Shown here one piece after another: positions 1,626 to 11,471 of a stretch of 64,000 nucleotides of DNA (its first letter is position 1; every line of letters starts with the position of its first letter). The translations under genes were made by a program, and so were the position numbers. This stretch comes from Marivita geojedonensis. GTDB taxonomy: Bacteria > Pseudomonadota > Alphaproteobacteria > Rhodobacterales > Rhodobacteraceae. Location of the stretch: the NCBI RefSeq assembly GCF_002115805.1, contig NZ_JFKC01000005.1, positions 1-64,000 on the forward strand. Direction: 5' to 3'. Under the pieces are notes generated by a model. That model was not told the DNA's origin, did not search any database, and saw only the letters and a program-made list of their open reading frames with translations.

Positions 1626-2036
1626 AAAAACGAAGACACTGAAACCGATCCTAGGCTGCATGGCTTCGAATCCGCCAGAGACACCGGCAGGTCGTCTGGC
1701 TCTACTTCCGGTTCCCACGGAGATGTCGTGATGTCGAGGACATACTTGTCGAACGAGCACAAAGGCGTGTTAACTATATCTGGCGAAGAGGTTCGACTGG
1801 AAATCGGACAGCTTTTTTGGGGTAGATTTCATGACCAAGTACTTGGGCGGGCTATCTCAATTAAGGTCCGAACCTTTCGAACCACTTGGAGTTCAAGAAA
1901 GTGCTTACGTTGTCGAGGCCGAGGTCCACACAATGCTGCCCCAGAGCAGTCGCAAGTAACCCTAAGCCCTGTTTACGGTGCTGTTCGATCCTCCGAGGTT
2001 CGCAGGCCAAGTATCTATCCACGTGAAGGAGGTCGA
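1626..2036. other. Intergenic stretch, probable leader of the cNMP-binding gene
   Basis: No recognised gene. One short open frame at 1831-1959 (+, 42 residues, starting MTKYLGGLSQLRSEP) is open but has no convincing ribosome site and no family I recognise. The sequence before it (1760-1830) is AT-richer than the surroundings and could hold the promoter of the gene at 2037. Confidence 0.3.
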
Positions 2037-2699
2037 ATGCCGTTTCTAGAGGTATTTGGGTGGCTGGGGGCGCTGCTGACGCTTGCCGCATATTCCATGC
2101 GCAGTATGTTTCCGCTGCGCTGCGTCGCACTGGGCGCAAACGTGGCATTCATTACGTATGGGGCGCTGACGCCAGTATACCCGATGCTCGCACTGCATTT
2201 AGGGCTCCTGCCGCTAAATGCTTACCGTCTGGCCGAGATCCTGCTTGGCTTGCGCCGGATGCGAGCTGCCAGCCGGATCGTCAATCCGGTCGACGCCCTA
2301 AGACCCTTTCTTCGCCCGACAAGGTTTTCGGATGGTGATGTCGTTTTCCGCCGCGGCGACGTGCCGGACCGTATCTACTATCTCGAACGTGGTACGGTTC
2401 TTCTGCCTGAACTGGGCGAACGGCTTTTGGAAGGGGCGATATTCGGCGAGATGGCCTATTTCTCCGATGCTGGGCAGAGAACAGCTTCGGCGATCTGCGA
2501 AGGAGATTGCTCGATCCTCTCCATCGACGAGAAAAGCTTCATGATGCTGAATCGGCAGCATCCAGAATTCGGTCATTATCTGATCCGTTTGATCGCTCAA
2601 CGACTTGTAGACGGGCACCGCAAGCGACCAGAGCTCTATGAAGGTTTCATCGAACAGCCCAGCGCCGGGGCTATGAAGACGGCCGGTTCAGCAACCTGA
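2037..2699 (+). CDS. Membrane protein with cyclic-nucleotide-binding domain
   Basis: A 220-residue protein with two to three hydrophobic helices in residues 5-72 and a Crp/Fnr-type cyclic-nucleotide-binding domain from about 90 to 205. The phosphate-binding cassette is recognisable as FGEM (136-139) followed by QRTASA, so the Glu (138) and Arg (148) that contact the cyclic phosphate in CRP are kept. No helix-turn-helix follows, so it is not a DNA-binding regulator. The ATG at 2037 is preceded by AAGGAGG, a strong ribosome site; a much longer upstream open frame is non-coding. It faces a paralogue at 2720-3463, and the cyclase fusion follows. A role as membrane-bound cAMP sensor is inferred. 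Confidence 0.8.
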   Translation: MPFLEVFGWLGALLTLAAYSMRSMFPLRCVALGANVAFITYGALTPVYPMLALHLGLLPLNAYRLAEILLGLRRMRAASRIVNPVDALRPFLRPTRFSDGDVVFRRGDVPDRIYYLERGTVLLPELGERLLEGAIFGEMAYFSDAGQRTASAICEGDCSILSIDEKSFMMLNRQHPEFGHYLIRLIAQRLVDGHRKRPELYEGFIEQPSAGAMKTAGSAT

Positions 2700-2719
2700 C
2701 GCTGAGGAAGGGGCTTGCT

Positions 2720-3463
2720 CTAGAATTCCGAGGCTGGGGACGACTCCGATGTGGAGCGGTTGTTTGCCTGCAAAAGCCTCATATTGGCATCCAATAGCTT
2801 ACGGCCCACCGACGCCCTCAGCCACTGCTCCACATGAAGTCGTATCTCATCGTCGTTCTTGCAAAGCGCCATTATGTCAGTGCCGGAAAGCGTGAAAACG
2901 CGCACCGTTTCTACCACCTCCACCCGCGCAGAAGCCCGCCCGCCCGATAAGACATTGAGCTCTCCGACAAAACCGCGCCGGATCTCCGCAACGACATGAC
3001 CTTTTGCGATCACCAGCGCCTCGCCCGTCAGGATGTAATACAATTCCTCGACGGGGACGCCCTCTTCTGTAAGAACCGTTCCGGCCGGAACGTCGGACCA
3101 CCGCCCCAGGTTCAGCAGGCGTCGCGCCATGGGTAAAGGCATTGCGGGAAAGACATCATCTATCATCTCGCGTTCCTCCGTCGAAAAATCGTTCTTCAGG
3201 CTCAGAAAAAAGAGCCGAGCCATCCCGACGAGGCTGATGCCAATCCAGAAAACCTGAATCGTGGCAGCGGCGGGATTGAACGCATTGACGAGGCTGATGA
3301 GAACCAACGTTGCCGCAGTCAGGTTTAGCAGTGCATAGGTATAACTCGACCCTCGAATGAACCCTGATTGGAGAGCGGCGTAGGAACCCACGTAGAAGAA
3401 GACGCCAAGGTGCCCAATCCAGGCGAAGACCAAGTCTTCAGAGATGCCACCGGTTTCCATCAT
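2720..3463 (-). CDS. Membrane protein with cyclic-nucleotide-binding domain (paralogue)
   Basis: A 247-residue protein with the same layout as its convergent neighbour: three hydrophobic helices (about 10-90), then a Crp-like cyclic-nucleotide-binding domain (about 105-225). The cassette GELNVLSGGRASARV keeps Glu168 and Arg176. There is no helix-turn-helix. It lies 54 bp downstream of the ammonium-transporter/cyclase gene on the same strand, so the two may be co-transcribed. Only 20 bp separate it from the convergent paralogue. A sensing role for the second messenger made by the cyclase is inferred from this linkage. The two N-terminal Met codons are both possible starts. Confidence 0.8.
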   Translation of the reverse strand: MMETGGISEDLVFAWIGHLGVFFYVGSYAALQSGFIRGSSYTYALLNLTAATLVLISLVNAFNPAAATIQVFWIGISLVGMARLFFLSLKNDFSTEEREMIDDVFPAMPLPMARRLLNLGRWSDVPAGTVLTEEGVPVEELYYILTGEALVIAKGHVVAEIRRGFVGELNVLSGGRASARVEVVETVRVFTLSGTDIMALCKNDDEIRLHVEQWLRASVGRKLLDANMRLLQANNRSTSESSPASEF

Positions 3464-3517
3464 CGGATCATGGGCTCGGTATGCGTGGGCTGTTCAACCT
3501 GCCTTGGCGCGCTGCCA

Positions 3518-5581
3518 CTAGCGCACATCGACTGACCTGTTGCGTTTAAAAAAACGCGACGATTTTTGCTGCATCGTCTGCCGTCGCCCCTCGACGGAAT
3601 AGAGCACCGTTGGCCCGATGCCCTTAAGCCTGACGCGGCGCTGTTTCTCATAGATGAATTCGGTGCCGATCCTGTCGATCACCGCCTCGCTGACCGAGAT
3701 CTTACCCGGTTGACCGGCCTCTTCGATGCGAGAGGCGAGGTTCACGGTCATGCCCCACATGTCGTAGACAAAGCGCAATTCGCCAACCACGCCGGCTACC
3801 AACGGGCCGCTGTGCACACCGATGCGCACTTGCAGGTCCCGTCCCATTGAAAGACCGTGCTGTCTCGTTTGGAACAGCAATTCCAGAGCTGCATCTATGG
3901 CGATTGCGCAATGATCAGCGTCATCATTCATCACGCCGGCGACATACATATAGCTGTCGCCCACAGTCTTGATCTTCTCAAGGTCGTAATGCTGGATCAC
4001 TGTGTCGAACTTGCCGAAAAGGTCGCGGAGCAGGGCGATCGACTCCTCCGGTGGTACGCTGGCAGAATATTCGGTGAAATCTACGATATCGACGAAAACG
4101 ACGGTCGCGTCCGTGACCTGATCGACGATCTGCTCGGCGCCACCGTTGATGCGAGCCGCAATTCGCTTGGGCAAAACGCTTTCCAGAAGCTCGTTTTTCT
4201 GCACCAACGCAGACTCCAGTTCAGCCTGTTGCTTTTCTGCTCGGTCAAAGGACCTTTCGAGTTCAAACAGCACCGAATTGTAAAACAGACCGATTTGACC
4301 GACTTCGGTAAAAGGGGATTGCGGCGCGCGTTCGGTAAGGTCGCGGTTGCGGGCTTGCCGTTGCATGACCTCAAAAAGTTCGTTCAGGTCGGTGTTGGCA
4401 CCGTGCTCGCCGACGTTGAGCCCGATGGTCTCGACGTGTTGGGTAACCCGAAGCGGGATCACTTGATTGATTGACCAAAGTAAGCCTAGCGGCACCAGTA
4501 CGGCATGGGCGATCAGCACGACGACCCCCGTCATTTGCGTTGCAAGCTGCTCGGCCACCTCAATGCCCAGCTGATCGGAACCGAAGATGGCGACCGCCGC
4601 AAGCCCCCATAGGCCGGACAGGAAATGCACCGGGACCGCTCCGACCACGTCGTCGATGTGTAGCCGTTCCAGCGCCTTGTCGCCGAAAAAGGCGATGCTC
4701 CCTCCGACCGCCCCTACGACAATCGCCTCTCGCACCGAGATCAGGTCGCAGCTTGCCGTGATCGCGACGAGCCCGGCAAGACCGCCATTCATGCCGTAGA
4801 AGACGCTCGGTTTGCGCTCCATCGCCCAGGAGATGGCGAGGCCCGTCAGAACGCCACCGGCACCGCCGACGATAGTGTTGAGCAGCAATCCCGGCACTTC
4901 ATCGGTAAATCCCCCGGCGCTGCCGCCGTTGAAGCCGAACCACCCGAACCAGATAAGCAATACGCCCAGCATCGTTAACGGCAGGTTCGATCCGTTGAAC
5001 CGTCGCGGCTGTCCGCTGTCCAGAAAGCGGCCCTCGCGCGGGCCAATGATAAGGATCGCGGCCAGCGCGACACCACCGCCTACGGCGTGGACCACGCCCG
5101 AGCCCGCAAAATCGTGGAAGCCCTGTCTATTGAGCCAACCGACCGGCGCGCCAGCGGCATCCTCGGCCCAAGCCCAATGGCCGAAGATCGGATAGATCAA
5201 GGTTACGGTGATCACTGTTATGAGAAGATAGGCGTGAAATGCAGAACGCTCAGCCACGGCACCAGACAGGATTGTTGCCGCCGTCCCGCAGAACATCGCT
5301 TGAAAGATGAACTGTACGTAGACGCCGCTGGCGCCCAGCTTTTCAAATGCGAAATCCGATGTGCCGATCAGACCGCCGAAGCTTGTTCCGAACATCAATC
5401 CGTAGCCGATTGCCCAGAAGAGCAGCACGGAGATCGACAGATCGCTGATGTTCTTTATCGCAACGCTGATGTTGTTCTTGCTGCGAGTTATACCTGCCTC
5501 GAGACACATGAAGCCGGCTTGCATCATGAAAATCAGCGTAGCGCAGAATATAATCCAAACCTGATCGATTTCAGTCATCAA
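3518..5581 (-). CDS. Ammonium transporter fused to class III adenylate cyclase
   Basis: A 687-residue fusion. Residues 1-380 are an Amt/MEP/Rh channel with about eleven membrane helices and the functional residues of AmtB: Asp157 in DFAGSGVVH, twin histidines His165 and His319 (VPVHFLSG), Trp138 in HWAW, and WFGFNGGSA with Phe and Ser of the recruitment site. Residues 400-490 form a polar, partly coiled-coil linker. Residues 492-665 are a class III cyclase: metal aspartates in FVDIVDFT (Asp498) and GDSYM region, adenine-selecting Lys538 (EKIKTVGD) and Asp607 (YDMWG), and transition-state Asn614/Arg618 (TVNLASR). This residue set predicts ATP rather than GTP as substrate. Two cyclic-nucleotide-binding membrane proteins are next to it. 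An ammonium sensor producing cAMP is inferred. Confidence 0.9.
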   Translation of the reverse strand: MMTEIDQVWIIFCATLIFMMQAGFMCLEAGITRSKNNISVAIKNISDLSISVLLFWAIGYGLMFGTSFGGLIGTSDFAFEKLGASGVYVQFIFQAMFCGTAATILSGAVAERSAFHAYLLITVITVTLIYPIFGHWAWAEDAAGAPVGWLNRQGFHDFAGSGVVHAVGGGVALAAILIIGPREGRFLDSGQPRRFNGSNLPLTMLGVLLIWFGWFGFNGGSAGGFTDEVPGLLLNTIVGGAGGVLTGLAISWAMERKPSVFYGMNGGLAGLVAITASCDLISVREAIVVGAVGGSIAFFGDKALERLHIDDVVGAVPVHFLSGLWGLAAVAIFGSDQLGIEVAEQLATQMTGVVVLIAHAVLVPLGLLWSINQVIPLRVTQHVETIGLNVGEHGANTDLNELFEVMQRQARNRDLTERAPQSPFTEVGQIGLFYNSVLFELERSFDRAEKQQAELESALVQKNELLESVLPKRIAARINGGAEQIVDQVTDATVVFVDIVDFTEYSASVPPEESIALLRDLFGKFDTVIQHYDLEKIKTVGDSYMYVAGVMNDDADHCAIAIDAALELLFQTRQHGLSMGRDLQVRIGVHSGPLVAGVVGELRFVYDMWGMTVNLASRIEEAGQPGKISVSEAVIDRIGTEFIYEKQRRVRLKGIGPTVLYSVEGRRQTMQQKSSRFFKRNRSVDVR

Positions 5582-10344: not shown

Positions 10345-10623
10345 ATGGCTGGGAAACGAGAGAAGCCGGAAGAGATTGTATCGAAGCTTCGTCAAGTTGA
10401 AGTGCTGCAAGGGCAAGGCGTGACGATTGCTGACGCGGTGCGCCAGATCGGCGTGACACAGCAGACCTATTATCGGTGGCGCAAGCTGTATGGTGGCATG
10501 GGGCGTGAGCAACTCAAACGTCTCAAGGAGCTTGAGAAGGAGAACCTGCGGCCTCGCCGTGCGGTCTCTGATTTAACCTTGGACAAGTTGATCCTGACGG
10601 AAGCCGCGAAGGGAAACTTCTAA
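10345..10623 (+). CDS. IS3-family transposase OrfA
   Basis: A 92-residue helix-turn-helix protein (KPEEIVSKLRQVEVLQGQGV then QTYYRWRKLYGG) followed by a leucine-zipper-like helix ending in LTLDKLILTEAAKGNF, the usual OrfA layout. It binds the IS ends and, after a -1 frameshift, supplies the N-terminus of the OrfAB transposase. A good ribosome site (TTGGAGGATCAGCG) precedes the ATG. The C-terminal ENLRPRRAVSDL is close to the family form. Confidence 0.9.
   Translation: MAGKREKPEEIVSKLRQVEVLQGQGVTIADAVRQIGVTQQTYYRWRKLYGGMGREQLKRLKELEKENLRPRRAVSDLTLDKLILTEAAKGNF
10611..10617 (+). promoter_or_regulatory. Probable -1 frameshift site (G GGA AAC)
   Basis: The heptamer GGGAAAC fits the X XXY YYZ rule in the OrfA frame (GGA AAC codons) and sits just before the OrfA stop at 10621-10623. 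Slipping back one base continues as GGG AAA CTT CTA AGC CCT, which opens into the OrfB frame and yields a typical SPSRRRKCIDHVRREL junction. IS3-family elements are known to make transposase this way. Confidence 0.65.
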
Positions 10624-10655
10624 GCCCTTCGCGTCGTCGTAAGTGCATCGACCAT

Positions 10656-11471
10656 GTGCGGCGGGAGCTTAGCGTATCTGAGCGCTGCGCCTGCCGCACA
10701 CTCGGCCAACACCGGTCCACGCAGCGTAAGGTTCCGCAGAGCCGTGCAGATGAAGACCAGCTGACCAACGACATCATGGAACTGACGCGTCTTTACGGGC
10801 GATACGGGTATCGCATGGTCACCGGTCTGCTGAACAACGCGGGCTGGCATGTGAACCATAAACGGGTCGAACGCATTTGGCGGCGAGAAGGGCTAAAGGT
10901 CCCACAGAAACAACAGAAGAAAGGACGGCTCTGGCTGAATGACGGCTCCTGCGTCCGCCTGAGGCCGGAACGGCCCAACCATGTTTGGTCCTACGACTTC
11001 GTTCAGGATCGTACGCACGATGGTCGTGTCTACCGCACGCTCAATATTATCGACGAATACACCAGGGAGGCGCTGATGATCCGCGTCGATCGCAAGCTAA
11101 ACTCAACTGACGTTCTGGATGCGCTGACGGACCTGTTCATCCTGCACGGTCCGCCAGAATACATCAGATCCGACAACGGCCCCGAGTTTATAGCCAAAAA
11201 GGTACGGGATTGGATCGCGGCTGTTGGTGCCAAGACCGCCTATATCGAGCCGGGAAGCCCTTGGGAGAACGGATACTGCGAAAGCTTTAATGCCCGGTTC
11301 CGAGATGAGCTTCTAAACGGCGAAATCTTCTACAGCTTGCGCGAAGCCAAAATCCTGATCGAACAATGGCGCGTCCACTACAACACCGTCAGGCCCCACA
11401 GCGCCCTGGGATACAGACCGCCCGCGCCAGAAAGCATCGTTCCGATGGACCAGAGACCGACGATGCACTAA
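10656..11471 (+). CDS. IS3-family transposase OrfB (DDE integrase)
   Basis: A 271-residue catalytic subunit counted from the first ATG; the open frame extends upstream to the frameshift site and the true product is probably the OrfAB fusion. An HTH_21-like region (LYGRYGYRMVTGLLNNAGW) precedes the rve integrase core. DDE residues are visible in VWSYDFVQD, IRSDNGPEF and ENGYCESFNARFRDE. The C-terminus YNTVRPHSALGYRPPAPE is diagnostic of the IS407/IS3 group. No frameshift or stop interrupts the domain. Confidence 0.9.
   Translation: MRRELSVSERCACRTLGQHRSTQRKVPQSRADEDQLTNDIMELTRLYGRYGYRMVTGLLNNAGWHVNHKRVERIWRREGLKVPQKQQKKGRLWLNDGSCVRLRPERPNHVWSYDFVQDRTHDGRVYRTLNIIDEYTREALMIRVDRKLNSTDVLDALTDLFILHGPPEYIRSDNGPEFIAKKVRDWIAAVGAKTAYIEPGSPWENGYCESFNARFRDELLNGEIFYSLREAKILIEQWRVHYNTVRPHSALGYRPPAPESIVPMDQRPTMH

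Follow-up and report, generated by a model that had tools for sequence, protein, structure and literature searches.

In bacteria, cyclic AMP (cAMP) is read mostly through transcription factors of the CRP type. Among Amt proteins joined to a signalling output, the one with the nearest solved structures to the case described here (PDB 8qj3/8qpf) is an Amt-GGDEF receptor, the output of which we take to be a diguanylate cyclase. Another is Ks-Amt5, a sensor in which the Amt is fused to a histidine kinase (PMC5764959). In animals, the membrane protein POPDC1, with its divergent cyclic-nucleotide-binding (CNB) fold domain, partners the class III adenylyl cyclase 9 (PMC9724675), and in the PycC-PycTM plan of the Pycsar systems, as outlined in PMC11224242, the gene of a class III cyclase stands beside that of a membrane CNB protein. 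We have analyzed a stretch of 64,000 nucleotides (the window) of the marine bacterium Marivita geojedonensis, located at the start of contig NZ_JFKC01000005.1 (C45) of a 4.31 Mb genome. Here a single protein, P0003, joins an Amt to a class III cyclase, and the genes of two predicted membrane CNB proteins, P0001 and P0002, adjoin it. We lean, with some reserve, towards ammonium-controlled cAMP synthesis at a membrane complex, with P0001 as the reader of the nucleotide and P0002 as a Popeye-like partner of the cyclase. The features of the locus are the following.

3518..5581, minus strand: Amt-class III cyclase fusion P0003, 687 aa from a TTG, with an ATG directly after it, at 5578, as a possible start; PF00909 and PF00211
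4394..5560, minus strand: Amt domain, receptor type as supported by its sequence, with ammonium-site residues Q20, E27, N43, D46 and T102 (numbered from the ATG at 5578)
4121..4393, minus strand: conserved linker HVETIGLN..GEH..NTDLNELFEVMQRQAR...PFTEVGQIG.FYN, possibly HAMP-like
3590..4120, minus strand: class III cyclase domain, with D498/D542 (metal), K538/D607 (ATP-type) and N614/R618
2720..3463, minus strand: P0002, predicted membrane protein with a CBU_0592-type membrane region and a Popeye-like CNB domain without the phosphate-binding Arg
2037..2699, plus strand: P0001, predicted membrane region and CNB domain with the canonical E138/R148 (profile matches, alignment)
2026..2032, plus strand: AAGGAGG, resembling a ribosome-binding site, ahead of the ATG of P0001 (by eye)

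The gene of P0002 lies 54 bp downstream of the fusion on the same strand, and P0001 is convergent with it, coming from the opposite side. The fusion matches PF00909 with 364.6 bits and PF00211 with 159.3 bits, and PF00027 is found in P0002 (40.4 bits) and P0001 (55.2 bits); with E-values between 3e-10 and 7e-109, the domains of the three proteins are not chance matches. An initial annotation, made from the letters of the stretch, had described one protein with a complete Amt and an intact class III cyclase beside two membrane CNB proteins, and our profiles and alignments agree with it, down to residues D157, H165, H319, K538, D607, N614 and R618 of the fusion; the metal-binding Asp498 and Asp542 are present as well. 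They agree as well in that P0001 and P0002 have no DNA-binding domain, no such family having been matched in the profile search.

The structures closest to the fusion Amt are 8qj3/8qpf (372 bits), presumably Sd-Amt1, whose match runs on into the linker, and then 6eu6 (266 bits), which we take to be Ks-Amt5; 2b2f (172 bits) and E. coli AmtB (135 bits) score lower. The residue numbers of 6eu6 agree with those in PMC5764959, which gives seven ligands for the intramembrane ammonium site of Ks-Amt5: Q24, E31, N47, D50, T51, T109 and T112. Q24, E31, N47, D50 and T109 correspond to Q20, E27, N43, D46 and T102 in all six Amt-cyclase fusions that we have compared, and T51 and T112 are substituted. The same five residues also occur in one Amt of Vibrio and one of Phaeobacter, with ends that are by eye GGDEF-like and MCP-like, respectively, and in a third host Amt that is truncated where its contig ends. 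The host's two ordinary Amts of full length do not have the five jointly, the positions being A, E, N, L, S in L002 and T, Y, C, I, A in L003. Thus the five of seven site residues, along with the closest structures, support by sequence an Amt of the receptor (sensor) type, as had been proposed. What the fusion shares with Ks-Amt5 is a receptor-type Amt that retains the larger part of the ammonium site and is coupled to a signalling output; the difference lies in the output, here a class III cyclase, and in the adjacent membrane CNB partners. The same class III output separates the fusion from the Amt-GGDEF receptor.

Two other Amt genes deserve a comment. The third receptor-type Amt of the host (L113:16815-17339, contig C33) follows response-regulator and kinase-like genes, and a gene for an MscS channel with a CNB domain is found 3.7 kb upstream. 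The Phaeobacter gene (L019:5923-8409) lies on a plasmid of Phaeobacter inhibens, conjugative by prediction, and is annotated as an ammonium transporter only. It was considered as a candidate Amt-cyclase and rejected, as the alignment gave a C-terminus of the chemotaxis (MCP) type (by eye).

The linker was 80% identical between the host fusion and that of Marivita SBSPR2 over 75 residues, versus 61% for the whole proteins. It may be HAMP-like, and it appears as helix-loop-helix in a low-confidence AlphaFold model of the whole fusion, the mean pLDDT of which (48) is too poor to judge linker or oligomer. In class III cyclases two Asp hold the metal, an Asn/Arg pair acts at the transition state and a Lys/Asp pair selects adenine. 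All of these (D498 and D542, Asn614/Arg618, K538/D607) are identical in the six fusions, so that the product, judged by sequence, is probably cAMP. There are only two PF00211 matches in the host genome, the fusion and a CHASE2-cyclase on contig C14.

Both CNB proteins are predicted to be located in the membrane. The NCBIfam model CBU_0592 recognizes the membrane part of P0002 (81 bits, cut-off 25), the membrane part of a P0001 relative matches PF10688 YgjV (25.1 bits, cut-off 23.5), and hydropathy exceeds 1.5 at two segments in P0002 and at a single one in P0001. Their nucleotide pockets differ. In an alignment with canonical CNBs the cassette of P0001 is canonical, with Glu138 and Arg148 as the phosphate-binding pair, just as the initial annotation had read it. 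The pair read for P0002, Glu168 and Arg176, did not hold: Arg176 of its cassette (FVGELNVLSGGRASARVEV) aligns one residue before the phosphate-binding Arg, and the Arg position itself is Ala177. This position is Ala in 36/36 proteins of the P0002 type and Ala or Ser in 16/16 Popeye-like ones (52/52 aligned rows). Therefore the claim of two cAMP readers comes down to P0001, the only one of the two with a canonical pocket.

As for the relationship of P0002 to the animal POPDC proteins, PF04831 gave no match in P0002 in a scan to E 10, with filters that drop most matches above about 0.1. The pocket motifs of POPDC, given as DSPE and FQVT in PMC6726836, were not seen in P0002 by eye. Strict membership of the POPDC family was ruled out by these two tests, and for this reason we term P0002 only Popeye-like. 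A homologue, L015, does match PF04831, at 48.5 bits (cut-off 28.1). POPDC proteins have three transmembrane helices ahead of the CNB-fold domain. In the structural model of P0002 the CNB domain is good and the membrane part poor (helices 9-20, 28-60 and 64-90 at pLDDT <55); no POPDC chain was among the 50 structural matches listed for this model, which excludes nothing.

We have scanned the genomes of 84,980 species with linker patterns. The 51 pattern matches included five loci encoding a relative of the fusion, in a Roseobacter metagenome-assembled genome (MAG), Roseivivax lentus, Yoonia sediminilitoris, Marivita SBSPR2 and a Rhodobacteraceae MAG, making six with the window. Such patterns detect close relatives only, so more distant fusions may exist. 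In Roseivivax, Yoonia and the Rhodobacteraceae MAG the fusion is the sole PF00211 match of the genome. A membrane CNB gene adjoins the fusion at three of the six loci, the families differing: besides the window, Roseivivax (L051) and Yoonia (L052) have a divergent Popeye-like membrane CNB gene, with sub-threshold PF04831 scores of 17.3 and 22.8 bits (cut-off 28.1), and the Yoonia locus also has a gene for a SulP-STAS-CNB transporter. A CRP-type gene stands at one further locus and neither kind at the other two, so that P0001 and P0002 do not accompany the fusion consistently, contrary to what the initial annotation would require of its module. By sequence, the window fusion is closer to that of the Roseobacter MAG (78%) than to that of SBSPR2 (61%), of its own genus, a hint of transfer or paralogy.

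The pattern is stronger when the cyclases are followed instead of the Amt. Both class III cyclases of the host are flanked by P0001-type and P0002-type genes. On C14, the CHASE2-cyclase has both neighbours (the P0002-type gene split in two open reading frames, ORFs) with a SulP-STAS-CNB gene beyond. In SBSPR2, it is the other cyclase (AAA type, with a marginal SAM match) that has a P0002-type gene directly adjacent, unlike its fusion. A P0002-type profile at E <=1e-20 matched 57 of the 390 genomes of the order Rhodobacterales, host and partial matches included. Leaving the host aside, 36 matches in 34 genomes score above 170 bits, and we analyzed each of them with up to 7 kb at each side. A class III cyclase ORF was found within 7 kb at 22 of these 36 loci, compared with 0.86 expected from the cyclase counts per genome, transferred by hand, and rounded genome sizes (Poisson-binomial tail 2.5e-33, relatedness ignored). 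In genomes with one to four cyclases the figure was 21 out of 25 loci. Counted by genus over all 36 loci it was 9 of 13, and three more loci (G507, G522 and G676) lie 7.4-8.0 kb from a cyclase by match coordinates.

Some decisions affect these counts. The broken or split genes at L151 and L153 were kept within the 36. L165 was counted as near a cyclase on a weak domain (25.4 bits, cut-off 21.9) in a genome for which the genome-wide listing has no cyclase, and the cyclase of L152, 6.0 kb away, has an ORF that runs off the DNA analyzed for this locus. Eleven weaker or partial matches were left out of the locus analysis, one of them (G451:C33) with a cyclase at a distance of about 3 kb. For the locus scans outside the 36, the cyclase hidden Markov model (HMM) gave the same outcome with and without a piece of L019; for the 36 loci it was built without L019 and with a SAM-type cyclase added. 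At L153 (G702:C2) the P0002-type gene is down to a 125-aa piece, and no PF00211 cyclase was found in that genome.

The partner cyclases are of CHASE2, CHASE4-HAMP, receiver, SAM-AAA, HNOBA and AAA types. Those of L155, L114, L157, L154, L149, L163, L165 and L151 were checked with Pfam; the remaining CHASE2 rows were assigned with a single-protein HMM. When the 11 partner labels are mapped on a tree of 39 proteins of the P0002 type, 13 changes are required (minimum 10), from which the cyclase partners appear to have been exchanged. One of these labels is "none within 7 kb", some are based on size alone, and SAMlike1100 (L146, L158), ACfrag (L147) and ACother (L152) were assigned by size and HMM match. 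G779 repeats the trio of the window with a different sensor, having a P0001-type gene and a P0002-type gene together with a CHASE4-HAMP-cyclase. The P0002-type ORF of G474 encodes 231 aa. The module cannot thus be taken as specific for ammonium, as it had been described, since its P0002-type genes are also near CHASE2, CHASE4, SAM-AAA, HNOBA and receiver-domain cyclases. The other part of that proposal, a membrane branch not based on CRP, becomes plausible from a proximity of P0002-type genes to class III cyclases in Rhodobacterales that is far beyond chance.

Several additional arrangements were seen around these genes. The end of C14 (L016:1-575) and that of C15 (L115:2-1312) carry the two halves of a glutaminase-STAS-CNB gene, which suggests that both contigs abut; a Popeye-like membrane CNB gene (C15:1489-2175) is next to it, and the CHASE2-cyclase locus may hold in this case five CNB genes, one of them split. 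At L163:7877-9754, a gene for a patatin-like phospholipase with a CNB domain has as neighbours a CHASE2-cyclase, a gene of the P0002 type and a further gene for a membrane CNB protein. At L201:6980-9105, a weaker P0002-type match (214 aa) adjoins a gene of 442 aa that is Amt-like and has no cyclase. In the window itself, transposase genes, presumably IS3-like, are located at 10345-11471, about 5 kb from the fusion.

A match to P0001 was present in 14 plasmid records and one to P0002 in a single record, with none to the Popeye-like protein of Yoonia. In a Variovorax plasmid a P0001-type gene adjoins a cyclase, and in the SC52 plasmid its neighbours are an H-NOX gene and kinase genes. The membrane-CNB unit of the P0001 type is also the N-terminal part of proteins of 492-493 aa (L042:6098-7576, L044:6995-8476 and L046:6809-8287). 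L042 and L044 match MCPsignal of Pfam and L046 is similar by eye; the two fusions to MCP signalling domains suggest that a unit of this kind can act on outputs besides transcription.

Taking all this together, the sequence of events that we propose starts with the receptor-type Amt, which would sense extracellular ammonium. The conserved linker would pass this state to the fused class III adenylyl cyclase, raising or lowering its activity, and cAMP would be made at a membrane assembly with P0001 and P0002 as dedicated partners. P0001, with its canonical pocket, would read the nucleotide, and P0002 would more likely dock on, scaffold or tune the cyclase, in the way of POPDC1 with adenylyl cyclase 9. 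The Amt would be one of several interchangeable inputs of a Rhodobacterales module of cyclase and membrane CNB proteins.

A number of observations weigh against this proposal. In the genera g294 and g352, with 10-61 cyclases per genome, none of the eight P0002-type genes is near a cyclase, and among weaker P0002-type matches (99.6-158.9 bits) only 1/20 is. Elsewhere in Alphaproteobacteria a cyclase ORF was present at none of 13 loci of P0001 relatives (two, L045 and L047, with the membrane part only), and none of 12 loci of PF04831 proteins was near a cyclase (L073, L074 and L075 being without a CNB ORF, and L069 only 3.9 kb long), which is evidence against a universal association with cyclases. 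No cyclase is annotated within 6 kb of the P0001-type gene of a Bradyrhizobium plasmid. The models of the P0002 membrane part and of the whole fusion are of low confidence. At the fusion loci themselves, a gene for a CNB+HTH_Crp_2 regulator (CRP type) is directly upstream of the fusion of the Rhodobacteraceae MAG (L054), and no CNB gene was found near those of the Roseobacter MAG (L050, 11.7 kb covered) and SBSPR2 (L053, 16.2 kb covered). These last cases would suit a free-standing ammonium-sensing adenylyl cyclase whose cAMP joins the general pool and is sensed by soluble regulators of the CRP/Fnr type, with the membrane CNB genes as non-specific neighbours. The host does have further CNB proteins (15 matches in total, 12 above the cut-off). 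Such an explanation is hard to square with the 22 of 36 P0002-type loci near a cyclase and with the pairing of both host cyclases with both protein types, and we regard it as rather unlikely.

The idea of the initial annotation that P0001 and P0002 are both plain cAMP receptors, forming two parallel membrane read-outs, is less probable still, given that P0002 and all its aligned relatives lack the phosphate-anchoring Arg and that P0002 lacks by eye the DSPE and FQVT of the POPDC pocket. An anti-phage pair like those of Pycsar, in which infection would trigger synthesis of a cyclic nucleotide and the membrane CNB proteins would open pores, shares the plan of a cyclase gene beside a membrane CNB gene. 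PADLOC models of PycC match the fusion cyclase domain (best 55.4 bits), and its PycTIR models match the CNB domains of P0001 (29.8 bits) and P0002 (39.0 bits). These matches cover only the cyclase part and the CNB part of PycTIR and related effector models, and Pycsar membership was rejected on this basis as the first reading. No model named PycTM matched, whether the library includes one not having been checked. Pycsar cyclases are specific for UTP or CTP. Besides, the active-site residues of the fusion are ATP-type by sequence (K538/D607), the partner cyclases bear varied sensor domains, and the nearby CNB genes include SulP-STAS-CNB and glutaminase-STAS-CNB. Overall, we find a Pycsar-type function very improbable. 

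The proposed membrane complex of the fusion with P0001 and P0002 can be compared with that of animals. In both cases membrane proteins with a divergent CNB-fold domain have class III adenylyl cyclases as partners; the differences are that the proteins are bacterial here, that P0002 is not detected by PF04831 and has neither motif, and that the partnership is known here from gene order only. More tentatively, and with somewhat more doubt than belief, we extend the proposal to the order: Popeye-like membrane proteins may be general partners of class III cyclases in Rhodobacterales, whatever the sensor (Amt, CHASE2, CHASE4, SAM-AAA, HNOBA or receiver), forming local membrane cAMP complexes with transporters and enzymes that bear CNB domains. 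Such complexes could correspond to that of POPDC with adenylyl cyclase in animals, and perhaps be related to it, with the Amt version turning outside ammonium into a local signal. The literature that we searched for Amt-cyclase fusions, bacterial Popeye proteins and modules of cyclases with membrane CNB proteins (titles and abstract starts of the best-ranked matches, with subscription papers mostly outside the scope) gave no description of the present module, and the word "cyclase" occurs nowhere in the main text of a 2023 review on Amt proteins.

Relatives of P0001 and P0002 accompany cyclases of several kinds in related bacteria, and this points to a branch of cyclic-nucleotide signalling at the bacterial membrane that is so far undescribed. 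If this is true, the module of cyclase and membrane CNB proteins would give cAMP a second role, fast and local at the membrane, and its Amt version would be a direct path from outside ammonium to a local cAMP signal. It would also provide a simple bacterial setting for the effect of Popeye-type proteins on adenylyl cyclases, a question of heart and muscle biology.

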